A stretch of 64,000 bases of DNA from Polytrichum commune (lineage: Eukaryota > Streptophyta > Polytrichopsida > Polytrichales > Polytrichaceae). The stretch is from positions 21,299,666 to 21,363,665 of the forward strand of contig OX485807.1 in assembly GCA_950295325.1 (NCBI GenBank), written 5' to 3'. Shown here in pieces: positions 3,673-61,692 of this stretch. A model generated the notes under the pieces. It was not told where the DNA came from. It was given only the letters and a program-made list of their open reading frames with translations, and searched no databases. The position numbers and the translations under genes are program-made. Each line of letters begins with the position of its first letter. Position 1 is the stretch's first letter.

Positions 3673-4024
3673 TCCCTTTGCACTTGTCTTGTGCAAATCC
3701 TTGTGTTGTGGTCATAGTCAATGGTGGGATTGGTCTTTGCAATCTATCATTAGTTCTCGAACTTGGAAAGAAACGAAGTGATTATTTTCCTTGTTGGCCT
3801 TGGATTGGCAGACCCTGGCCTTGAAGCTCTCTAGTGGTACCACGTGAGCATGAACAACCAACCTAAGAATGTTAACCATGCATATTGGTGGGGTTGGTGG
3901 AGGGTGAGGGTGAGGGTGGTTGCAATTGTGGTTTTCATCTATTAAGCCATTTTCTATTAAAATATTTTTTAAAAAAAAGTAAACCACAACCACAGCCGCA
4001 ATCACCCCTAATGTAAATGATCCT
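3584..4024. mobile_element. Inverted-end MITE-like element with internal (CA)n
   Basis: The left side contains GGTGATTATGGTTGTGGTT (3603-3621). The right side contains its near reverse complement, AACCACAACCACAGCCGCAATCACCCC. The outer parts (GGGTTGTTTGCACTGTAAA on the left, TTACATTAGGGGTGATT reversed on the right) are also similar. A (CA)n tract lies inside at about 3640-3670. Target duplications were not resolved. Confidence 0.55.
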
Positions 4025-5563: not shown

Positions 5564-5605
5564 GGGATGTTTTCAGATTCTCAAAATATTACGGATTCCT
5601 TGTAC

Positions 5606-8080
5606 GAATGAGTTTGAGAAATAACCGGTTGAGCTTTAGGGTACACCATGAGATAATAATATTCACGTGCACATTACGAATGAGTTTGAGAAATAACCGG
5701 TTGAGATTTAGGGTAAGCTAGGAGACAATTTTATTCCAGTGCACATTACGGATGAGTTTGAGAAATAACCGGTTGAGCTTTAGGGTAAACTAGGAGACAA
5801 TTTTATTCCAGTGCACATTACGGATGAGTTTGAGAAATAATCGTTTGAGCTTTAGGGTAAACTAGGAGACAATTTTATTCCAGTGCACATTACGGATGAG
5901 TTTGAGAAATAACCGGTTGAACTTTAGGGTAAACTAGGAGACAATTTTATTCCAGTGCACATTACGGATGAGTTTGAGAAATAACCGGTTGAGCTTTAGG
6001 GTACACCATGAGATAATAATATTCACGTGCACATTACGAATGAGTTTGAGAAATAACCGGTTGAGCTTTAGGGTACACCATGAGATAATAATATTCACGT
6101 GCACATTACGAATGAGTTTGAGAAATAACCGGTTGAGATTTAGGGTAAGCTAGGAGACAATTTTATTCCAGTGCACATTACGGATGAGTTTGAGAAATAA
6201 CCGGTTGAGCTTTAGGGTAAACTAGGAGACAATTTTATTCCAGTGCACATTACGGATGAGTTTGAGAAATAACCGTTTGAGCTTTAGGGTAAACTAGGAG
6301 ACAATTTTATTCCAGTGCACATTACGGATGAGTTTGAGAAATAACCGGTTGAACTTTAGGGTAAACTAGGAGACAATTTTATTCCAGTGCACATTACGGA
6401 TGAGTTTGAGAAATAACCGGTTGAACTTTAGGGTAAACTAGGAGACAATTTTATTCCAGTGCACATTACGGATGAGTTTGAGAAATAACCGGTTGAGCTT
6501 TAGGGTACACCATGAGATAATAATATTCACGTGCACATTACGAATGAGTTTGAGAAATAACCGGTTGAGCTTTAGGGTACACCATGAGATAATAATATTC
6601 ACGTGCACATTACGAATGAGTTTGAGAAATAACCGGTTGAGATTTAGGGTAAGCTAGGAGACAATTTTATTCCAGTGCACATTACGGATGAGTTTGAGAA
6701 ATAACCGGTTGAGCTTTAGGGTAAACTAGGAGACAATTTTATTCCAGTGCACATTACGGATGAGTTTGAGAAATAACCGTTTGAGCTTTAGGGTAAACTA
6801 GGAGACAATTTTATTCCAGTGCACATTACGGATGAGTTTGAGAAATAACCGGTTGAACTTTAGGGTAAACTAGGAGACAATTTTATTCCAGTGCACATTA
6901 CGGGTGAGTTTGAGAAATAACCGGTTGAACTTTAGGGTAAACTAGGAGACAATTTTATTCCAGTGCACATTACGGATGAGTTTGAGAAATAACCGGTTGA
7001 GCTTTAGGGTACACCATGAGATAATAATATTCACGTGCACATTACGGATGAGTTTGAGAAATAACCGGTTGAGCTTTAGGGTAAACTAGGAGACAATTTT
7101 ATTCCAGTGCACATTACGGATGAGTTTGAGAAATAACCGGTTGAGCTTTAGGGTACACCATGAGATAATAATATTCAAGTGCACATTACGGATGAGTTTG
7201 AGAAATAACCGGTTGAGCTTTAGGGTAAACTAGGAGACAATTTTATTCCAGTGCACATTACGGATGAGTTTGAGAAATAACCGGTTGAGCTTTAGGGTAA
7301 ACTAGGAGACAATTTTATTCCAGTGCACATTACGGATGAGTTTGAGAAATAACCGGTTGAGCTTTAGGGTAAACTAGGAGACAATTTTATTCCAGTGCAC
7401 ATTACGGATGAGTTTGAGAAATAACCGGTTGAGCTTTAGGGTAAACTAGGAGACAATTTTATTCCAGTGCACATTACGGATGAGTTTGAGAAATAACCGG
7501 TTGAGCTTTAGGGTACACTAGGAGATAATAATATTCAAGTGCACATTACGGATGAGTTTGAGAAATAACCGGTTGAGCTTTAGGGTAAACTAGGAGACAA
7601 TTTTATTCCAGTGCACATTACGGATGAGTTTGAGAAATAACCGGTTGAGCTTTAGGGTAAACTAGGAGACAATTTTATTCTAGTGCACATTACGGATGAG
7701 TTTGAGAAATAACCGGTTGAACTTTAGGGTAAACTAGGAGACAATTTTATTCCAGTGCACATTACGGATGAGTTTGAGAAATAACCGTTTGAGCTTTAGG
7801 GTAAACTAGGAGACAATTTTATTCCAGTGCACATTACGGATGAGTTTGAGAAATAACCGGTTGAACTTTAGGGTAAACTAGGAGACAATTTTATTCCAGT
7901 GCACATTACGGATGAGTTTGAGAAATAACCGGTTGAGCTTTAGGGTAAACTAGGAGACAATTTTATTCCAGTGCACATTACGGATGAGTTTGAGAAATAA
8001 CCGTTTGAGCTTTAGGGTAAACTAGGAGACAATTTTATTCCAGTGCACATTACGGATGAGTTTGAGAAATAACCGGTTGA
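5606..8080. repeat. 72-bp satellite array, about 34.4 units
   Basis: Unit starts fall exactly every 72 bases from 5606 to 8054 (2448 = 34 x 72), so no unit has changed length. The unit core is GATGAGTTTGAGAAATAACC followed by GGTTGAGCTTTAGGG. Two body types exist: type A (ACACCATGAGATAATAATATTC) and type B (AAACTAGGAGACAATTTTATTCC). Named variants are C (GAGATTT, AAGCTAGG), D (CCGTTTGAG) and E (GTTGAACTT). Units 6-12 and 13-19 both run A-A-C-B-D-E-E, a 504-bp higher-order repeat at 5966-6469 and 6470-6973. Units 1-5 (A-C-B-D-E) look like a shortened copy. The right part is less ordered. Type A runs are open for 24 codons per unit, but type B has in-frame stops, so the array is non-coding. Confidence 0.97.
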
Positions 8081-14490: not shown

Positions 14491-14852
14491 AAGGTAGACA
14501 ACCCTTATTTGATTACTTTTCTTATTAGAACACCCTTATTTGAGTGGTATGTGGTTTGGTGTGGCTCCAATGATGGATACCAAGAAGGCTTGTGTTTAAA
14601 AGAGGTTAGGCTACATGCTCAAAATCTAATAACTATTCTAGGCTCAATAGTCAACATAATTGGCAGGTAAAAGGGGTCCTATATGACCATTTAATGAGCA
14701 CAAGGATGAATAAGACATGCATACGAGCACCAAAAGTGGATGAAAACTTGCATTTTTTTTCATCTTGCATACCTCTTGTACAATTTGCATTTTCATATTG
14801 TAGGAGAAGTGGGCTTGTTGGGAAAAGTAGTCATTTTCAACCCATCTACCTT
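14491..14852 (+). mobile_element. TTAAGGTAGA-ended MITE-like repeat (copy 3, complete)
   Basis: The left end is AAGGTAGACAACCC and the right end AACCCATCTACCTT. The body matches copy 2 and others (GGTATGTGGTTTGGTGTGGC, CTCAATAGTCAACATAATTGG, CATACGAGCACCAAAA). At 362 bp this is the best delimited member of the family. A tandem repeat block begins immediately to its right. Confidence 0.7.
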
Positions 14853-26770: not shown

Positions 26771-27015
26771 AAGCAGATGAGTTTGAGACTTCAAAAAAAA
26801 AATACTAGTTACAGATGATCCGGATGGGTTTGAGAAATAACCGGTTGAGGTTTGGGACTTCAAGGAAATTACTAGTTATAAATGAACGGGATGAGTTTGA
26901 GGAAATAAGTGGTCGAGGTTTGAGACTTTAGAAAATTAACCATCGCATACGAACCGGACGAGTTTGAGAAATAACCAATTGAAGTTCGTGACTTCGGAAA
27001 ATTACTGGTTGTTAT
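26770..27015. repeat. Dispersed, diverged relatives of the 72-bp satellite
   Basis: GATGAGTTTGAG or close variants occur at about 26776, 26829, 26889 and 26957. Several are followed by AAATAACCGGTTGAGG-like sequence, then ACTTC...AAATTACTAGTTA. Spacing is irregular (about 53-68). It is the same motif family as the array at 5606-8080, but aged and scrambled. Confidence 0.75.
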
Positions 27016-29467: not shown

Positions 29468-29984
29468 ATGACATGATTGTTGTTGGCGTCTAGTGTGACT
29501 GGGTCTTTAACTCAACCCTAGTCCAAACTCCATCGCCCCTTGCAAACCCCAACCGTTGCCACATGCCATGACCACATGGTGAGCTCAAAGGAGTGGATAA
29601 CAAATACGGTGAGAGACCTAATATGGACATCTTTTGGATTTCAATATAATCATGCATAGGTTTGTTTTAAAAGAATAACGCTACATGAGCACATCCAAAT
29701 GAAGAATATGAGAATTGAGCTAGCTATTTTTGAAGTCGAGATGAGTATTTCTTGAAGTGGAAGTTGACCTAAAGAATCAATTATAGTAAAACATCATAGG
29801 GGAAAAAACAAACAAGAATATTGTCATATGAAAAAGTTGACCTATGATGTTGTTTCTTTTGGATTAGTGATACCTTTCATATTTGAATGAGTGCCCATAC
29901 GTGACAGTTCATTGTAGGTCACCGTTCATGATAACTATGACCTTTACAGTTATCAAACACTTTAGCTTTACACCCATTTCACTC

Positions 29985-30255
29985 ATGATTTTAGAAGAGC
30001 TCTCATGAATATTTTTATTCATTATCAAAGTCAAGGTTCTCTTTCTCATTAAATGATCATATAGGTCTCCCCCCATTATCTTGGCTCGTAAATCTAGAAT
30101 GGTTAACGGATTTTGAGCACATTGTCTAATCACTTTTAAACACATACCTTCTTGGTGTATGTTCTCAGATCCACACCTAACCACACACACTCGAATTAAA
30201 AGTGTCCATTCAAGATAAGTAACCGAATTAGGCCCACTCACCTTGGATGTAGCAT
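29985..30255 (-). mobile_element. TTAAGGTAGA-family MITE-like repeat (copy 4, minus)
   Basis: Read on the minus strand it begins AAGGTGAGTGGGCCTAATTC and continues GGTTACTTATC, GTGTGTGGTTAGGTGTGG and GATAATGG...GACCTATATGATC. The frame across it stays open (part of a 126-codon reading frame). A similar frame is open in copy 3, so the family may derive from an element with coding sequence. Confidence 0.65.
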
Positions 30256-38787: not shown

Positions 38788-40325
38788 ATATATTTATTTG
38801 TCTTTGTCAGGTATACAAAGAGTGATCATGTTAAAGTGCATAAGTTCCATCGTGTACATGGTTTTGGTATTCTCAAATTAGAGGACTTCAAGGATATTTT
38901 GACCTTGAATCAATACTCCAAGTGTGTTCAAAAGGGTGAGAAGCCAATTTGGTATGCTTTCACTAAGAATGTGTTTGCCAGTTTCTTTACAATGTAGATG
39001 TTCTACTATTTGTATATTTGACATAGTTTCAATCACTATTCTAGAGCTAATGTATTTTCTCTTCTTGTAGCATGAGGTGACATCTATCACTAAAAAGGCA
39101 TCTCTTAAGTACAACGAGAAAAAATCCTTTGATGTATGGTGTATGAGATGCAATGTGAAATGCAACTTAAAAAAGAAGCAATAGTTTCAATTCGTGGGAA
39201 GGAACTCAAGAAGCTAATAGCCGTGGCTAATCCAACTAATGATGTGGGCTTCATGAATGAAGTGAGTCAATTCAAAGTGCTTCCTATTGGTTTTTTTTTG
39301 TTATGCTTTCAATGGGTTGTTGACATTTTTCATTTTGCAAATTTGTCAAACATTATGAAGTAAATGCAGATCCTTCAAATGATTGCCACCACCCCAACGG
39401 GTGTTGTTTCAAGGCTAGGTGGTTGAAGTGGTGGAATTCAAGTGATATGGTCTGTGAGTCATTGCACTATCCATTAGAAAATATCAAAGAGAAGGTATTT
39501 GATGCATGGTTGATTAAGGCTTCTTTTTGGACTAAGTTTACCTTTACCCAACTTGTTGTTTATTCATTTTCTTATTCTTCTAAAGTTTTAGGTTAAGACT
39601 ATTAATTACTTGGATTATTTGGCAATTAGATGGTTTTGTGAAGGAGCTTCTGAATATGGAGAAGTGATTGAAGGAGAAGGTTTGTTGGGATGCATTTGTG
39701 CTTGCGCCTTTTGAGAATGCTAAGAAATGGTGCATCTTACTATGGACTAAAAGCATTTCGACCATTTTTCAGTGGCCAAGATACTTTCACAAAATCAAGT
39801 GACCTCAACAAAGTGTTAGGCGGTGACATTGCGATCAAACGAGTTATATACAAGTTGTTGTTTCATTGGTTTAACCTACTTGCAACATTTTTAATGCACT
39901 TTATGATTTTTTATTATATCTTCCACCTACATTCAAACTAACATGGGTTGTTTGATTGTGGTAGGTATTTAAAGTGGGAGTTGTTGCCGGCAAATGCCAT
40001 CTCCTTTGCATCCATTCCTGACTCCTTTGCTTCATGGATTGACACATCCCTCAAATTTTGTATTTTCACCACAAACCAGATGAAAATATGGGATTATTCC
40101 AATTGAGGTGTTGTCCATGATTTATTATTTGCCCTATTACTTTTCACCTAGCCAAAGAAGAGGAGGTGAGGAAGAAGACCAATCCAATAGAGTTGCCTCG
40201 AGATGATGTAGACACGATACACTATAAGGATGAGGTAGAGGTAGTTGTCAAACATGTAGGGAAGGGTAAACATATACATCGCTCCGAGACCGAGGAGGTT
40301 AAAACTACAGTTGCCTTCCAAATTG
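38180..40325 (+). pseudogene. Decayed multi-exon gene with ParB/Srx-like DGNH motif (5' part)
   Basis: The first exon (38180-38664) starts MDIYTLKINGNMIGFRPF and contains MFYIWDGNHHVIAWHRHIHR, resembling the DGNHR core of ParB/sulfiredoxin-like proteins but with His in place of Arg. A TGA at 38582 interrupts the frame, which then continues HYSMDCFVLKP to a GT donor at 38665. The next exon begins at 38811 after an AG acceptor and keeps phase (YTKSDHVKVHKFHRVHGFG). A frameshift follows near 39137 (SFDV to VYEMQCEMQLKKE). The last piece before the insertion (about 40154-40331) encodes an acidic/basic tail, ELPRDDVDTIHYKDEVEVVV. The function of the intact protein is unknown. It probably belonged to a mobile element. 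Confidence 0.55.
38724..38786. repeat. Perfect (CA)n-TATATA-(TG)n palindrome
   Basis: About 14 CA units run into TATATAT and then about 13 TG units, so the whole segment can fold into one hairpin. It lies inside the predicted intron (38665-38810) of the decayed gene. Confidence 0.95.
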
Positions 40326-40331
40326 TAGTTG

Positions 40332-43300
40332 TGTCGTAGCACGGTGGTGGCGTATTCATTAAATTAACCTGATAAACGCGTAACACGTCACAACCGCGCC
40401 AAGTTTGTTCCCACGAAGAACCTACGGTTGTTTACGACCCTAGAGAGAGGGAATCTTTCACAAACACACACACAAGAAACACCAGAAACTAAGACAACAC
40501 AAATCGGATTAAGAAATCCGGGATATTACGGAAAGTATGGCACGGATATTTCCGCCTTTCCGGTAGTGGACCGAAGTATGGAACACAACACAAAGTATAG
40601 ACAAACTCCCACCCTCGAGTAGTAACAACAATAGACTCAGTGTCCCGAATCCATAGTATAACAACTATATACACTCCATTCTAAGATTCCTTATTACGGG
40701 TCATGACTTCCAGGATAAGGTTTCCGCGATAGAGGTAGCGGATTTTACCTGTATTTCCACTATCCGCTAGATTTTCGACCGTGTCACAAAGACCATAGTT
40801 CTAGTGTTTTAGGCTAGAATGCTCAGAGAGATTTGGTAGTTGTTCATCAGGATTTCACCCTTTAGGTTGATTTCTTAGGGTTGTCTCCCTATCTCCATTT
40901 CCTCCTTCTAACTACTACCCCCTTAGACTAGTGTTATGATGGGGGCAACCCTCCCTCGGGAAGGTGTCCCACTCAAGTATCCGACGCGTGCCACCCCCTT
41001 TTACGGGGGAGAAGGTGGAAGAAGTTTTGGGTCTACAAAACCAGCTTGATCCGGTTTCCGTGATGACACAGTTTTCACTATACCACACGCGGAAACCGAA
41101 TCCTTCCTCGAGAAAGGTGGAAACACAACATCTTCACTCCTATCCTCACAATGGGTAGCTTGTGCTGTTCCACAGGTCACACAGGATAGGACCTAAGGTC
41201 TGTTGATTTCCGTGACGGCGGGGCTAACATAGGGATGGGGCTACCATGCCTACCATCCGCGGTGGGAACCAAGCGTCAGTTGCGGCAGGTGCATGAGTGT
41301 TCTAGACCAGTCCGTTACTGCTGATCGGTGTGATCCACCTCCAGGTCACGGCAAGCGGAAGGTGTAAACCAGAACTCTTCCCCTACTATTGGACATGTTT
41401 ATCCACTGCTGCTCATTGTCGGTCCCTACTTGGACGGAGTAAGTGGGGAAGAACCTACCGTGTGTGTGGAACTTCCCTTGTCCAACAACCCCACGGTGGG
41501 GTTCTTTCCCCTTGCTCGGCCAATCCTTTCCTCCTTTCCGCGCTTAAGATTCCTCCGCCCATCACCTGCTCACACAGGGGCGTTTCAACCACACGCACCT
41601 CGGGGTATTACTGTTCCCCTGTCCTATCACGGAATACTACCTAACCAACCTACACAATGATAGGGAATGGCGGAAAACTCGGAAACCTCAAGTAGGGGAA
41701 GGAGGGACCACTTGCATTACACATGTACTCAAGACTCAACTCAAAACGAAGGTGAAGTAAAGCATAAGGTCCGAATTAAACAAAAGAACATTTGCATTGC
41801 AAAATGATGAGAAAAACACCGGAGTGCTCCCTCTTAAACCAAATTAACACCCACATGCCATGGTTTCCATGCTGGAAATCACGGGCCACGTGACAGTCCT
41901 GACAATCCACCTCAATGAGAGGTCAGAACCTAAACAAAGAAAATGAAAAAGCACCCAACCCGGGGCCAATTAACTACTTGCCCAAAACAACTAAAAATGG
42001 AATCCTAACTAAAATCTACTCCTTATCCTTCCGCTTCTTCAACTTGGCCTCCTTCTTATTATGCTTCCGCTCCTCGCGGCGGTCCACTCTATCTGTTACC
42101 AAAGATGGAGCACGTGGTGGTGGCCCTGACACCTCGTGTCCATCGGGTCCGGGAATCGCTCCCACGCGGTCCACCGTCTCCGCAACGTCCGGTGCCAGTG
42201 GTGCGGACAGTTGGTTATCCGGCAGAAATCCCGGAGTAAAGAATTGCAAGTGGCGGCGGATCCCGGGCAACCACTTGGAAGTCCGTGGCAAGGCTCGGTG
42301 TTGAGACCTCGGCCACGTGACAATCACCCAAGGTTTCATCTCCAACCGCGGCAGAAACTGGGGAGGCATTGGGAACTAACACCTCAGTGGTGGAAACCGG
42401 TAGGGCCGTGATCGCCGTGATGTCCTCCACCTGGTCCACCTCTTCCGCATATTGGTTTCCACCTTCTACCGCGGCATCCTGAATTTTCACCATGTCATGA
42501 GGGGTCAGGTCGGAGTAGCTCGATGAGGACTCTCTTTCCTCCGATGACTCAACTACGACGGGAAACAATTCCGTGCAGCTAGCAATGAGGGCCTTCATTA
42601 CTTTCAAAGATGCGTCCATCTTACTCCCTTGATCCATGATGAAGGTAACCATCTTCGACCCGGAAACGTGGCCCGCATTCTTCAATTCCGTGTCGAATAT
42701 CTTGGCTTTCCACCACACATTCCCCGGGATTTCCACCATATCACTCACCTTTTGTACCGTGAGGGTGGTATCCTTTACCTGCTTAAGGAGCTTCTCTCGC
42801 TCCGCCTCCAACTTCCGCACTCGTTCCGCGGTCTTCCATTTTTCCGCAGTAAGGTGGTCAACCTTACGCTCCAGCTCCCGCAACCGGCGCGGATCTTGGA
42901 TGGCCTCATGTATTGCGGCAACCGAACTCTCCCGCGGAAGGTTGCCCACCAATTCCCCTACTTGTTGCATTTGCAGCTCATATTCCGCAATCCGGAATCG
43001 TACTCCCTCCAAGTCGCGGATAATGGTGTCCACCAGATTGTCCTCCAAGGGGAAGGTGGAGGTTCCACCTCCTACGGGCTTGGTGGCGGACCTGGTCCGT
43101 GTCGCACGATTCCCCAACATTAGTTTCCGTTTTTTGGTCACGGGCCGCTCTTTGTTGCTCAACTCCATCACATCTTCCTCTTTCGAACCCTCATGGCTCA
43201 TTTCCGGCTCCGAGTTGGTAGTCTTGACCCCCCGCATGAACTGATGCGATGTCCATTGGGTTTCTTCTTCGTCTGTGAGTAGGTTTCCGTGTGCGTAAAG

Positions 43301-44151
43301 GTGGAAGAGGAAATGCCCAATGTAAGAAGGTTGGCCTCGCTTAGTGTTGGTTGCCAACTTGTGCACCAACTCCCCAATGATGCTTCCCCAATCCACCACG
43401 TTCTTCTCATAGTGTGTAAGAAGTAAGGTGGTGGCAAGGGTAAGAGTGATGTTATAGGGCTTCTCCGGGCTAAAGATAGACACTAGAAAAGTTAACATTT
43501 TCCTTTCCCTCTCGTCTTTACAATCCTTCACAAAGTAGCCATACTTGGGTTCAACCTCTAGGAGAATTTGTCCCTGGTACAATCCTCTCTCTTAGTGGCC
43601 ATACCTTCCTCTCCCTGCTTGAACCCGTAAACATTATTCCACAATTCCGCATTCCACTTATCCGGTCGGCCCCGGATGGTGGAAGCGTAAACTTGATCTA
43701 CCTCCCCAGTGACCAACTCCCTCACCATCTCCTCACAGCGCACTCTCCAAGATTTTTCCCATAACCCGAAGTAGCCCATGCGCCTCAAGTCTGCCTCCAA
43801 TTCATTGCTCTCCTCTCGACCAGTGGGGGTGACCACGTGCACCTTGCGGAGGGCTAGCGGCTTGTCCGCAATCCTCTTCCGGGTTTGGGTCGCCATGGTG
43901 GTTGCAGCCCGCCGTCACCTGTGCGGTCCGCTCCGCTCTAAGGTTTCCGAGTCGAAACGGAATTCCTAACACTAACTTAATTTGATGTTTTTAACTACTT
44001 TAAGGATTTTAATTTTTCTTCTCAATTCTAAATAACGTACCTAATAATCTACCTATAAAGTACTCTACTTATTATGTTTTCCTTGGTCAAACCTATTTTT
44101 TAAACTTAAAACAAGGTTACTTAAGATTTTAAGAAAATGCGGGCTACGACA
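40332..44151 (-). mobile_element. 3,820-bp TG...CA element with 5-bp target duplication (solo-LTR-like)
   Basis: The ends are TGTCGTAGC at 40332-40340 and GCTACGACA at 44143-44151, a perfect 9-bp inverted pair. AGTTG lies on each side (40327-40331 and 44152-44156). Removing the element and one AGTTG restores an open reading frame in the host sequence. TG/CA ends plus 5-bp duplication are typical of LTR retroelements. I see no pair of direct terminal repeats and no reverse transcriptase or integrase, so it could be one very long solo LTR or an unusual non-autonomous element. Base composition (CCGC-rich words, higher GC) differs sharply from the flanks. It carries one minus-strand gene. Confidence 0.8.
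42215..43896 (-). pseudogene. Element-encoded coiled-coil protein, one frameshift
   Basis: The frame opens at 43896 (MATQTRKRIADKPLALRKVH) and runs about 105 codons to a GA-repeat near 43584. There it shifts to the frame of 43582-42215 and runs about 455 more codons. A gain of one GA unit would explain the break. The first half (LRRMGYFGLWEKSW, VYASTIRGRPDKWN, ALTLATTLLL-like helices, GHFLFHLYAHGNLL) has the layout of the plant transposon-protein domains found in retroelement-derived genes. This is inference from memory. The second half is a long charged coiled coil (about RRLRELERKVDHLTAEKWK through LEAEREKLLKQVKD), then an acidic, low-complexity tail. No catalytic motif is visible. Length if intact would be about 560 aa. 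A programmed frameshift or sequencing error cannot be excluded. Confidence 0.6.
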
Positions 44152-45410
44152 AGTTGTAGCACCCATTCCAAGTCCTCTTACAACTACTCCTAGTCCATCG
44201 TCACATTGCTAGTATGCCTTCGCCAAATTCATGTACTTTGAGATTTAAAAAGTTCCAAAAAACATAGTGAGTAATGCGTCCCTGTCTGACCTAGTTTGTT
44301 TAGTGTTGTTGGAGAATACTTCTAATTGATGATGGCCCTTTTCATTTGTTTGTCCTTGAGGGAAAAAAAATGTTAGGGATGATGTAAGAATCTTTGTAGC
44401 CTCTTATGAGTTTTTTTTGCGGAAAGATTGATGGGGTTTCAATGAGTTGCCATTGTGCTCTACACTGAACACTATATTATTTTTCAACCTTTCATTTGTA
44501 CCTTTTCAATATGTGCAATGTTGATTAGGAATTTGATATCCAACTCTAAATTCTAGTTAATGTGTTTCCGCATCATGTTGTTCCTCCGCGTAATTCCCAA
44601 GCCGGAGTTTTTTTTTTTTTTTTTTTTCCAAAAGAAGAGATCAACGTTTGATGTTGATGTGGAGGCTTTGGATGTGTACTTCAATCTGACATCGGCGAGC
44701 ACTTAATTAATAAATGAAAATATCATGGGGAGGTAAAAGGGAAAAAACTTTGAATCAATGCAGATTTTAATTGAAACTTTAATAACTCCAAGGTTCGTTG
44801 TCCTTGATGCTTATGCATGTAAGACTTGGTATTCTTAAATTCTTGATGTTATCATGCAAATAAAATTCATTTTGGTTTTAAATGTGACTTGTGCTAATAT
44901 TTGACCTTCAAACGTATCAATGGCACTGGGTGCATCTATTCATGCTTGTAGACGTGGTGGCTATCATTTAGTTGCTTACGAGGAGGACTTTGCACTATTT
45001 GATGTGATCCCCATTGTGTGATGCAAAACCGACTACTCCTCCAAGTGGGCCATGTTTCCCATGATGCCTCCACTGAATCCGATGAAGAGCATGTGAAGAA
45101 GGTTCCAAGGAAAGCTTGTTTGAGTGAGTAAGTTAAGGATTTATTCATGTATTGTGTGATTTAAAACTTTCTAATGTAAAACAATACTTGAACTTTGAGC
45201 TTTACGTTTTTAATTTGCAAAAAAAAGAAAAAGCATGAGCACCACTCCAAGTTCTATGGTGTTGCCTCTATATGCAAAGAGGGCTGCTCAGATGGTGGCA
45301 AAGTAGGCATCGCCGATTCCTTGATGTAGGTCAAAACAAATAGCTCGTAACCCTTATGTAGATGACGAGGTGGATGAGTGTAATGAACTTGAGGACTAGG
45401 CTAGACTATT
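44152..45410 (+). pseudogene. Decayed gene continued beyond the insertion (3' part)
   Basis: After the second AGTTG the frame continues VAPIPSPLTTTPSPSSHC to a stop near 44215. Later fragments such as GYHLVAYEEDFALFDVIPIV (about 44951-45020) and QNRLLLQVGHVSHDASTESD (about 45022-45080, another frame) lie in the same direction. A run of about 22 T occurs at 44608-44629. These look like scraps of the same plus-strand gene that starts at 38180. No intact exon remains. Confidence 0.4.
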
Positions 45411-48019: not shown

Positions 48020-50340
48020 ATTTTAATCATTTGTACCAATACTTCATTACAGAAATGTTAGAATGCAAAATATCCCAAACTACCAGTGGATGACTTCAAA
48101 GTGGATGAATTAGGAATAAGTTGAGATGACAAGATTTGTAAACTTATTCATAAGAACTTGAGAATGCTCAGGCGGAGGCAGGCCACAAGAGACTCTTCAA
48201 CTTTTTAAACTTGCACACCAAAACAACCTGTGACATGTAAGTTGTAAGATTTCAACAACTCTTGTGATCAATTGGCATGCAAATCACCCAACGATGAGCA
48301 CATGGAGAGGATGTTAGAGCAACATTCACATCAAAGCATTAGGGAAACTTTGAGGCCTCAACATGCCCCTGAGTTTTTTGGAGGAAAGTGAATTGTTTGG
48401 AGGCCTACATGCCTAGGAAAGACACTAGGAGTGTACCCAAGTTGGGTACTCCATGTTAGGTAACCGATACAAAGGTAGAAGTTGACGGGAGAAGGTAACT
48501 GAGGTTGCCAACGTCGGAGTGGTACTCCCAGGTACGCTTCTTTGCATGATTGGACAAGGGTTTACCAAGCTGAGGTCACCATACATGGGTACGAAAGTGG
48601 GAGGTACTATGAGACCTTCTAGTTTTATATTGCTATTTGGTGGTGCACTTTCCCAGGGGTCATTGTTCATGGGTATTGATGTCGTTCAACCCCCTCCCAT
48701 CATGCCCATCTTGGCCGTCAATTTTTTTGCACAATAACTCGGGTACGTGTACAAAGTGAGTGGAAATAGGGGTTTGGGGACCAAGGGATTTCTTTGTGTT
48801 CTTAAATGAATCCTAAACACTACGGGAGGGTAACACTACGGGAGGAGCATGTTGAGGCCTTAAAGTTTCTCTAACGAGAATGACCCGCTCTTGTCCTCAT
48901 CCTCCAGGCTCTTATGGTGATCCCTTTGTGATGTACCTTGGTTTAGCAGTTGATTGATTGATTGATTGATTGATTACAGAAGAATGATGACTAAGCACAC
49001 TCTGTTGTACTTAGCATGTGAGCGAATGATGATTGGCGTCAAACAACTCTAGAGGAAGAAATGGGTCAGACAACCCAAGAATGAATTGTGCACAAATGTT
49101 TTATAATGAATAAGTTAAATCTCATTATAAAGGTACATCACCCCCCCCCCATGTCTATATAGTGTCTATTATTAATTAGAAGGCATCCCTATCCCATTAC
49201 CATTGGGCCACTTCTCTAATTGATATGTAAAATTAGGTTGCCCCAACCTCCTTTATCGACATTCGACATAATTTTTGAATATTTCTTATCACAATAACAA
49301 AATATAAGAATCATATTTTACTCCTATGGTTGCTATATAATGGATCAATTAACAAAGTTATAAGTTTTATGATCTAATCTTGACCCAGGGTAATCTACAT
49401 GGATAAAGAGACAACCTATTTGCAAAGGCAACCTAATTACACATATCAATGTAGGTATCATGAATAACCCCATCGAGATGGAGGTGAGGGCTCGCATGTT
49501 ACACTTGTGCACCTAAACAAACGTGGAAGAGGAAAAAGGGGGGGGGGGTGCATATATCAATATAGGGAATGGAGTTGTCATTCTTCAAAATTTTGGCGAT
49601 ACACACACACGTTCACGTGATAATTTCCCTATATATGTTGGCTTTGTCTGTAGGACAGAGACTATGCATCGACTTCCATGTTTCAAGAGCAAATTTCCTA
49701 ACCACTTTGCGTTCACACTTGGACGTTACTTGTTCTTCCTATTTTTGGTCAAGTTTATTTAACGTGGATGGTGAAAGCTTGCACACCCTGGACAACTAAC
49801 CAACTAATTCAACTATTAGTTAACTAATTGCCTTTCGTAATTATAGTTGTTCGCAATTTGACTTGCCAAAAAATGTAGTTAACTATAGTTGTTCTAAAAT
49901 CTAGTTATATATAGTTATATATATCCAGTTAACCATAGTTTTTCCCTAAAATGTATGGAAGAAATATATAATTCACTATATTTGGTTATAGATATAGTAA
50001 ATAGTCATGGACTGGCATGAGCAAAGTGTACAACTGTAATTAAAGTTTTCATAAAAAAAGAACAGAGCCTCACGGTTGTACCATTTTCTTGTTCTTATAA
50101 AATCAAAAGGCATTGTGATCGTAAATAGTCACCGATTCTTCTAGCAACATGATTCTTTGGAAAATGGAGAGGTCCATTTTGAAATGATTAGGCCATTTAA
50201 GGTTAATATACCCTTGGCTTTCTTTTCCTTTTTAATTTCAAAAGTTGTCCAATATCACATTAACCCAAGATGCCCTTTCCAGACCTCAACATGCACAAAA
50301 CTATTTTTGAGAAACATACTTCCATCCTTTGAATATCTTC
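48020..50340. other. Gene-free stretch
   Basis: No gene supported. It holds (GATT)n at about 48952-48976, a C run at 49141-49150, and an AT-rich patch at 49800-49990 with repeated TAGTTAACTA-like palindromes. Open frames of 70-80 codons show no recognisable product. Confidence 0.4.
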
Positions 50341-50344
50341 ATCA

Positions 50345-50575
50345 TCCAACTGAAGATTCTTGTGCTCGTTAAATGGTCATGTAGGTCCCCCAATCATGTT
50401 GACTAGTGAGCCTAGAATGGTTATTATATTTGAGCACATTGTCCAATCTCTTTTCAGCACATGTATACTTGGTATATGTTCTTGGAGCCACACCAAACCG
50501 TATGCCGCTCAAATATAGGTGTCCAATTAAGATAAATAATTGGATTACACTAGTTGTCTTTAGGTAAGTATGTCA
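50345..50575 (-). mobile_element. TTAAGGTAGA-family repeat (copy 5, minus)
   Basis: Minus-strand reading gives GTGTCCAATTAAG on the complement, GGTTTGGTGTGGCTCC, ATGTGCTGAAAAGAGATTGG and CTAGGCTCACTAGTCAACATG, all matching other copies. The ends are diverged. Confidence 0.6.
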
Positions 50576-52109: not shown

Positions 52110-52465
52110 TAATGTAGACGTGCTTGATTTGCTCACTTATCTAATCAAACACCTATATTTGAATGGTATGTAGTTAGATGTGGCTCCAGGTATGGATATC
52201 ATCAAGATATATGTACAAAGAAGATTGAACTACGTGCTCAAAACATGACAACCATTCTATAGTCATTAATAAACACAATGGGGGGGGGGGATCATGTGTG
52301 GCCATTCAATGAACACAATAATCTTCACATTGATATGAATAGGATATTCATACAAGCTCCAAAAAATTCCAAGGAAAGTGGCTATGGCCTCCATTTGGAT
52401 TTGCCAAACATCTTATATTAACCATGTGTTTCATATCATAGTAGGAAAAATGGTCTAGTCGGGGG

Positions 52466-57093: not shown

Positions 57094-57334
57094 TAGCCCT
57101 CCTGTGACTATGTCCATACTAATGCCATCTAAGAGACACACAACACTTAGAACTCACGACTTGCCTTAAATAATAAAGATGAATTATTGTGAAATGTGAT
57201 TAAGGTGAGTGAACCTTAAGCCAAAACTTCTAGCTCTGCGTGCATTTCTCCTAGGTTAATAAACACACAAGTAGTGTGAGATGATTAGCAAAACCAAATT
57301 GAGGCCATAGGCTTTTTCCTCATAGTCTTTGGAG

Positions 57335-57555
57335 CTCATATGATTTCGTCATCAAAGTGAAGATTCCCTTTCTTCTCAAATAATCATATATATCCTGGGA
57401 ATTATGTGGACTGTTGAACCTAGAATAGTTAAATTTTGAGCATTAATTTCAATCTTTGTTTAAACACAGGTCTTTTCAGTGTCCGTACGCCACTCAAGTA
57501 TTGGTGTCCGATTAAGAGAAGTAACCGAATTAGGCCCACTGACCTCAGATCAACA
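57335..57555 (-). mobile_element. TTAAGGTAGA-family repeat (copy 8, minus)
   Basis: The right side reads ACCGAATTAGGCCCACTGACC, the inverted left end of the family. It also carries GTGTCCGATTAAGAGAAG and CTAGAATAGTTAAATTTTGA. The 5' side is diverged. Confidence 0.6.
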
Positions 57556-60736: not shown

Positions 60737-60934
60737 CTGCATAGAAGATTGCCGAAGCAAAAAGAGAGCTGGACTTACAAACCCTAAAATTTGCCTAGAA
60801 TCTGCTTGAAAGGGAATGTGTGATGTATGAGGAGCCTGCATAGAAGATTGCCGAAGCAAAAAGAGAGCTGGACTTACAAACCCTAAAATTTGCCTAGAAT
60901 CTGCTTGAAAGGGAATGTGTGATGTATGAGGAGC
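60737..60934. repeat. Perfect 99-bp tandem duplication
   Basis: Two copies with exactly 99-base spacing start CTGCATAGAAGATTGCC at 60737 and 60836, with no visible difference. Ninety-nine is a multiple of three. On the minus strand the frame is open through both copies (33 residues each, QAPHTSHIPFQADSRQILGF and onward), but no gene is otherwise supported there. It is located 340 bases upstream of the 240 aa gene. Confidence 0.95.
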
Positions 60935-61692
60935 CTGCAGTTGAGCTCCTTTGTGAGGCAGGCAGGATATGGCTGCACCATAGCTTTGACTTCTCATCCA
61001 TTTTGGATGATATTCATCAGGGCTTGCCTTTCAAGGACAAGAATTTAAGAGAATACCACCAAATGAAAAAAATTCAACTCCATCTATAAATGTATAAATT
61101 TTTCGATGGGACGGTGTGTATAAATGTCCCCTAGATAGAAATAATTGACGGGCACAATGTAAATGGAAAGTGAAATTTGCAGAGGGGGAATATACTCCTC
61201 TCTGTGTTGGAACTAGAAAGTGACTTTCAGTATGCATGGAAAAAAATGGATTGCATAAAATTGTTGGTGGGGACCCGAGATCATTGTGGCATGTTGCACT
61301 AATTTTTATTTTTCCATGTTAGTCTCATTATTCAAACCTTGCTCAAAGTTTTGGAATGTTTTAGGGTTTGTTTCCATTTTTCAAGAATCTCAAGATATAA
61401 AGTGCAACAAATCCACTCATGCAACATTCAAATTGAGTGATTGCGATGATGACCACATTCCACTCACATGTTTGACAACAAGACAGATCTATTCTCATAT
61501 GTTGGGCCCCCTACCCCACATGGAAGTGCTCGGACATGATATCAATAATTTAATCATTGAAATTGAATATCAATTTCAACTTGTGTTGAATCGTGAAAAT
61601 GCAGTGAGACATGCGTCAAGTGTAGACCTTTCTCTAAATTGCAATTATAAACTGCCTGAAGATTTCTATTCCTCCAAAAGAATGTAGATACA

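Follow-up and report, generated by a model that had tools for sequence, protein, structure and literature searches.

Long terminal repeat (LTR) retrotransposons of plants are flanked by 5-bp target duplications in 93.4% of cases according to an excerpt of a plant survey, which also describes extra open reading frames (ORFs) as common (PMC6317226). Further excerpts put plant LTRs at up to ~5 kb and record extra ORFs in the Ogre/Tat/Athila group (PMC6317226), and for Grande an excerpt of another paper reports that the extra ORF has its own promoter (PMC7264820). Here we analyse a 64,000-nucleotide stretch of the moss Polytrichum commune (contig OX485807.1, positions 21,299,666 to 21,363,665; the window), in which a 3,820-bp unit with TG...CA ends and AGTTG duplications carries one protein gene. 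The unit belongs to a family of dispersed single copies. We favour, at about an even chance, the reading that these copies are orphan LTRs, derived from a large retrotransposon that carries the gene inside its 3.8-kb LTR and is found here only as single LTRs.

Searches of the window's own assembly (407.8 Mb in 64 contigs) readily revealed the family. The whole unit gave at least 50 match rows (40 scored of 159 candidates), and at least 24 rows besides the window copy ran end to end, reaching base 3813 or 3820 at 87–93% identity. Exact matches to the 16-bp left end were found at 89 genome places, against none for a reversed-pattern control, and 30 of 37 complete copies have that exact end (one copy on contig C5 left out). 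Eight further left ends, from 15 picked among those not yet seen, were sampled over ~400 bp, and all eight lead into the same family. We call a copy complete when both mapped ends lie at the ends of the window unit, a definition that partly builds in the agreement of ends among complete copies. The 38 complete copies include the window copy and three short forms, with the tandem copy on C7 counted once; L031, L034, L036 and L044, each with one end unmapped, were excluded, and L010, a tandem copy identical to L009, was dropped from all counts.

A perfect 5-bp duplication flanks 27 of the 38 complete copies, and nine more match at four of five bases, every mismatch being C/T or G/A, so that 36 of 38, the window copy among them, carry a 5/5 or 4/5 duplication. 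The other two (C2:6386194 and C5:48056104) match at 1 or 2 of 5 bases. Copies later split by insertions (L038, L048, L050, L051 and the C5 copy) still show 5/5 or 4/5. The ends are TG...CA in 35 of 38, with one base altered in L019, L037 and L042. Most copies share no more than part of the left/right inverted match, a pattern like that of LTR ends. Across the 38 complete copies, the duplications fix the ends of the family and establish insertion by 5-bp staggered joining, and, as a footprint, ends and duplications together point to a putative integrase-type enzyme. The preliminary description, made from the window alone, had placed the boundaries where we find them, and they are real: ~3.8-kb copies at dispersed places have the same two ends and, with few exceptions, a duplication. 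It had also made its case depend on coincident ends and AGTTG-like duplications in other copies, which 36 of 38 have and two lack, with the agreement of ends partly set by definition. Of the two outcomes it had set out, paired copies around a gag-pol interior or single copies always with duplications as a pointer to a new non-autonomous class, our results fall on the second, with no LTR pair found; the two exceptions make “always” too strong, and the step to a new class goes beyond these results.

In the window, the boundaries read directly as AGTTG / TGTCGTAGCACG ... CGGGCTACGACA / AGTTG. Most copies end in GGGCCGCGACA or GGGCCACGACA at the right, and the inverted match is therefore usually weaker than in the window copy. 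From the window alone the signal of ends and duplication is weak, and it is the dispersed genome copies that settle it: a 5-bp repeat with an inverted match of at least 11/12 occurs in 11 pairs in the real window, where 30 shuffles average 1.7, and in 2 against 0.13 when TG is required. No LTR pair was found within the 3,820-bp unit, no second unit copy in the window and no polymerase or gag-pol Pfam domain in the six frames of the unit, in agreement with what had first been noted. The right flank AGTTGTAGCAC (44152–44165) is similar to the unit's own left end GTCGTAGCAC (40332–40343) in the window copy, a likeness not evident by eye in other copies. The unit is enriched in a motif, GGTTTCCG / CGGAAACC (6 occurrences in 40332–44151 against 0.17 in shuffles), and has the shorter GGTTTCC on both of its strands.

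Two further points had been made about the unit. The composition of the unit does differ from that of the remaining window (GC 0.50 versus 0.39; CpG observed/expected 0.80 versus 0.51), but it is not unique, with GC 0.48 or CpG 0.77 reached by single 3.8-kb stretches elsewhere (107 stretches), and its step is offset: segmentation by composition only gives 40279–43966, which starts 53 bp left of the unit and stops 185 bp inside its AT-rich right end, and duplication-defined ends score lower than composition-defined ones (160 versus 172 log units). The host frame said to be restored by joining the flanks lends little support: it has 88 amino acids, where random window points have a median of 52 and reach 98 at the 90th percentile.

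The gene of the unit is broken in the window copy and was under selection in the family. Its frame is interrupted twice, the second time between pieces 2 and 3, and the three minus-strand open pieces (ATG 43896 to 42016) show GC periodicity of codon type. The longest piece has 458 codons, whereas no frame exceeded 277 when the element was shuffled 300 times. A protein search found relatives of this piece in at least 95 genome match rows; the longest stop-free frame listed has 644 amino acids (C5:36054513). In 29 aligned copies, frames that start with ATG reach at most 581 and 579 codons. Short copies and copies split by large insertions were excluded from the 30 aligned copies.

Changes were classified in the 581-codon frame of L009 across 29 copies, with those shared by two or three copies excluded. 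Changes private to one copy comprise 174 synonymous and 384 nonsynonymous, whereas changes common to at least four copies comprise 140 and 135 (P = 6e-8 against private), counts that come from related copies, so that events are not independent. Without CpG-type sites the contrast is 80/227 private versus 95/88 shared (P = 1e-8). No such signal came from the noncoding half or from shifted frames (P 0.08 to 0.82). By codon position 1/2/3, the gene has 64/60/151 shared changes and the noncoding part 48/46/49. Thus, from the private and shared counts and the codon positions, purifying selection acted on the minus-strand gene during the spread of the family, and the gene decayed after insertion.

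No Pfam family reached its cut-off for the protein, and weak matches were mostly to coiled-coil families. Athila ORF1, Transposase_32, Transposase_28 and the plant mobile domain gave no Pfam match up to E 10 in searches with the window-copy pieces and five other copies as they stand, where HMMER filters may lose weak matches. A candidate kinship with Transposase_32/Athila ORF1 (PMC11728184, in an excerpt) was set aside without Pfam support. Two separate pieces, modelled without an alignment, came out helical, but mean predicted local distance difference test (pLDDT) scores of 42.5 and 38.2 make the models unusable, and a BFVD search with the first predicted model returned nothing at E <= 0.001. 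Sequence searches of the PDB with piece 2 gave no match when limited to its initial 131 residues and three matches at E ~0.4 when the whole piece was used. No relative was found in NCBIfam, PHROGs, viral contigs, prokaryote contigs, plasmids or phages, and Rfam gave nothing above threshold.

Short forms and branch lengths describe the history of the family. Of four short forms examined, three could be mapped at both ends (1,976, 2,469 and 2,488 bp), and all four retain the noncoding half with at most ~1/4 of the gene left. Two of those three have a perfect duplication, and the duplications ACATA and TGCAT belong to two of the short forms. Their right 200 bp are just 73–77% alike to the window copy, so they are not simple deletions. 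Nearest-neighbour copies are 92–96% alike, the tandem pair aside. Across 29 copies, terminal branches measure 1.8–5.3% (median 3.5%), none below 1.7%. Together they amount to 1.00, the internal branches to 0.17, giving a star-like tree. The family is an old burst whose copies are now mostly broken.

We searched the family for paired copies. By script count, three pairs of same-strand left ends lie at most 30 kb apart. At C7:16912781/16918423 the copies are identical, with 300/300 bases alike in the left flank and the same 12 bases at right; identical copies with identical left flanks indicate a tandem duplication of host DNA, the farther right flanks being 235/300 alike. C1:15187507/15187585 is a repeated end just 78 bp apart, and C5:38602448/38608329 joins a copy with its own duplication CCCAC to a separate 83% variant, hence two insertions. 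A further candidate from the protein search, C1:47930968/47949471, was rejected because GGGGA duplications flank the first copy by itself and the stretch separating the two, which are independent, contains a frame with a NIF phosphatase domain. No relatives of the unit flanking an interior were found by the exact-end search or by similarity searches that scored 40 of 159, 92 of 617 and 40 of 112 candidates, from which paired copies with altered ends could escape.

For a primer site we looked for TGG within 0–6 bp of an exact end and then examined recurrence. In gene sense, such a TGG stands after 8 exact left ends and after 16 exact right ends (1 and 3 in reversed-pattern controls), where a hand estimate expects ~10 of the left-end kind by chance for 89 ends. 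All 8 spacers differ, and two of the 16 are empty but continue differently; of four right-end places read farther, one is not an element copy and nothing is common past the end. The genome is rich in integrase genes (at least 2,105 first-look candidates, 150 scored), and one gypsy-like place sampled for LTR ends showed no repeat between two 3.2-kb stretches. Integrase frames of ~1,363–1,373 amino acids cluster once per large contig (seven), with some frames elsewhere, at C1 33.4, C2 47.3, C3 33.2, C4 35.5, C5 46.6, C6 25.5 and C7 13.6 Mb, a pattern that might resemble that of centromeres.

We lean to orphan solo LTRs because unit size and duplication length match LTRs in print, because of the age of the family and because its short forms retain the long noncoding half. 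The wealth of integrase genes in the genome also speaks for this reading. That retention is expected of the regulatory part of an LTR and fits LTR variants at least equally, and an old, star-like family had time enough for solo LTRs to form. In such a retrotransposon family, a 3.8-kb LTR would carry an extra gene of ~630–650 codons, a retroviral-type integrase would insert copies at TGTCG...CGACA and leave 5-bp duplications, and recombination between the two LTRs of each element, in a two-LTR form so far unseen, would discard the interior and leave single LTRs. The gene product, for which helices and a coiled coil are predicted and no known domain was found, was needed by the element while it spread, as the selection on its frame shows, and may have had an accessory role of the kind suggested for extra ORFs in plant retrotransposons. 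A gene-bearing solo LTR of 3.8 kb had been called extraordinary in the preliminary description; its size alone is not, given plant LTRs of ~5 kb in an excerpt of the plant survey (PMC6317226). Several results weigh against orphan LTRs. The family would need to have lost nearly every two-LTR copy, and the 89 exact left ends include no LTR pair; zero pairs among ~87 independent left ends limit intact copies to at most some 3–5% (hand estimate). No recurrent sequence followed either end in the primer-site test, and gag-pol was unseen beside the fetched copies, in flanks of mostly 200–1,500 bp viewed without a systematic scan. The open-licence literature searched yielded no plant LTR with a protein gene inside it, and the single match to “LTR contains an ORF” was a review of a mammalian retrovirus.

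These results make a close rival, and a real possibility though short of an even chance, of the reading that the 3.8-kb unit is a complete free-standing element with one gene, never part of an LTR pair. Its ends would be joined to the target either by an unrecognised protein that it encodes or, in trans, by an integrase or a transposase of similar kind, and the short forms would be its non-autonomous relatives. Zero pairs among 89 left ends, with that end exact in 30 of 37 complete copies, argue for it, as do the lack of a primer-site class, the eight of eight further left ends that run into the same element, a selected gene that starts 255 bp from one end in good context, and the two short forms with duplications of their own. 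Yet its machinery is not visible, with no transposase or integrase domain in the unit frames or the longest natural frames of five copies, and its inverted ends are weak in most copies. The short forms also keep ~1.7–2.1 kb of the noncoding side, above the need of transposase ends, and their diverged right ends do not fit simple deletion. The class implied, with LTR-type ends, 5-bp duplications, one promoter-led selected gene (~630–650 codons), a 1.7-kb conserved noncoding half and integrase-type spread without a two-LTR stage, is one that we propose tentatively and with some doubt. It is improbable that the unit is instead a deletion derivative of a two-LTR element, with one LTR nearly gone and the accessory gene plus the other LTR forming a mobilisable unit. 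An excerpt describing extra ORFs beside the 3' LTR as common in plant gypsy elements is in line with this origin (PMC7264820). But both ends are common to complete copies, so the truncated form would itself have had to spread, and there is no convincing internal repeat of the ends, the best (10/12 at 41620) being at chance level. Least probable is a classical DNA transposon of the hAT, CACTA, Mutator, PIF/Harbinger or Ginger superfamily: a gene flanked by imperfect inverted ends and the existence of short forms would suit it, but 5-bp duplications clash with those of the superfamilies (hAT 8, CACTA 3, Mutator 9–11, PIF/Harbinger 3 and Ginger 4 bp) and no domain was found.

If the copies are solo LTRs, a plant LTR with a selected protein gene would be unusual, with an accessory gene sited in the only part of the element that recombination leaves behind. 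Should they instead be complete elements, insertion of LTR type would need no LTR pair, contrary to an assumption of current classification. On either reading, the family is a clean test set, with common ends, 5-bp duplications, datable copies and long and short forms.

Elsewhere in the window (Table 1), a 72-bp tandem array of 34 copies lies at 5603–8080, with a diverged 67-bp relative, ~70% alike, 19 kb off at 26781–27010. A 99-bp tandem unit occupies 60737–60939 (2.1 copies, 100% alike), and a dispersed repeat of ~200–250 bp is MITE- or SINE-like. At 2121–2540 is a gene for ribosomal protein eL36, whose best PDB matches we take to be plant sequences.

Table 1. Coordinates of the insertion unit, its parts and a dispersed repeat in the 64,000-nucleotide window
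Feature	Position	Strand	Remark
Left target-site duplication AGTTG	40327..40331		Identical pentamer at other end
Whole element, 3,820 bp	40332..44151	- (gene strand)	Single copies genome-wide with same two ends
Left terminal sequence TGTCGTAGCACG	40332..40343	+	11/12 inverted match to right end in window copy
Noncoding half	40332..42015	+	Between-copy uniformity slightly above gene half; retained in short forms
Third open piece, ends ...KKEAKLKKRKDKE	42016..42375	-	Same ending in several other copies
Second open piece, 458 codons	42215..43591	-	Predicted helical with coiled coil (low confidence)
First open piece, ATG 43896 in ACCACCATGG context	43558..43896	-	Frame broken near its end in window copy
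AT-rich gene leader, GC 0.36, TTTATAGG at 44059	43897..44151	-	Putative leader function
Right terminal sequence	44140..44151	-	GGGCCGCGACA or GGGCCACGACA in most other copies
Right target-site duplication AGTTG	44152..44156		Matches left copy
Dispersed repeat	~870-1128, 14503-14746, 29974-30243, 50330-50547, 52114-52381, 57261-57545	both orientations	

Compared with known systems, the moss unit shares single features with several. The direct LTR copies, primer binding site and gag-pol of two-LTR retrotransposons were not found, nor were the features of LARD/TRIM elements or the duplication lengths and transposase domains of plant DNA transposons. LARD/TRIM elements are non-autonomous, as the moss unit may be, and in an excerpt are thought to depend on enzymes in trans (PMC7215508), but they are two-LTR retrotransposons without protein coding, whereas the moss unit is single and coding, with no second LTR found. 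The semi-autonomous RLG_Quinta resembles it in having one protein gene and a partner that supplies enzymes (PMC11302176, in an excerpt), and differs in its two LTRs, primer site and recognisable GAG. Grande gene23, RIRE2 and Retand ORF4 offer, like the moss gene, a large conserved ORF without clear relatives, but an excerpt places these ORFs between pol and the 3' LTR (PMC7264820). Solo LTRs of the large plant Ty3/gypsy elements Ogre, Tat and Athila differ in that no two-LTR relative of the moss unit was found in its genome, its gene lies within the unit, and its protein has no Pfam match to the named extra-ORF domains of that group. Nevertheless, the likeness to them covers the TG...CA ends, the 5-bp duplications and the kilobase-scale LTR, and this solo-LTR signature of TG...CA with a short duplication of fixed length is found in 36 of the 38 complete copies.

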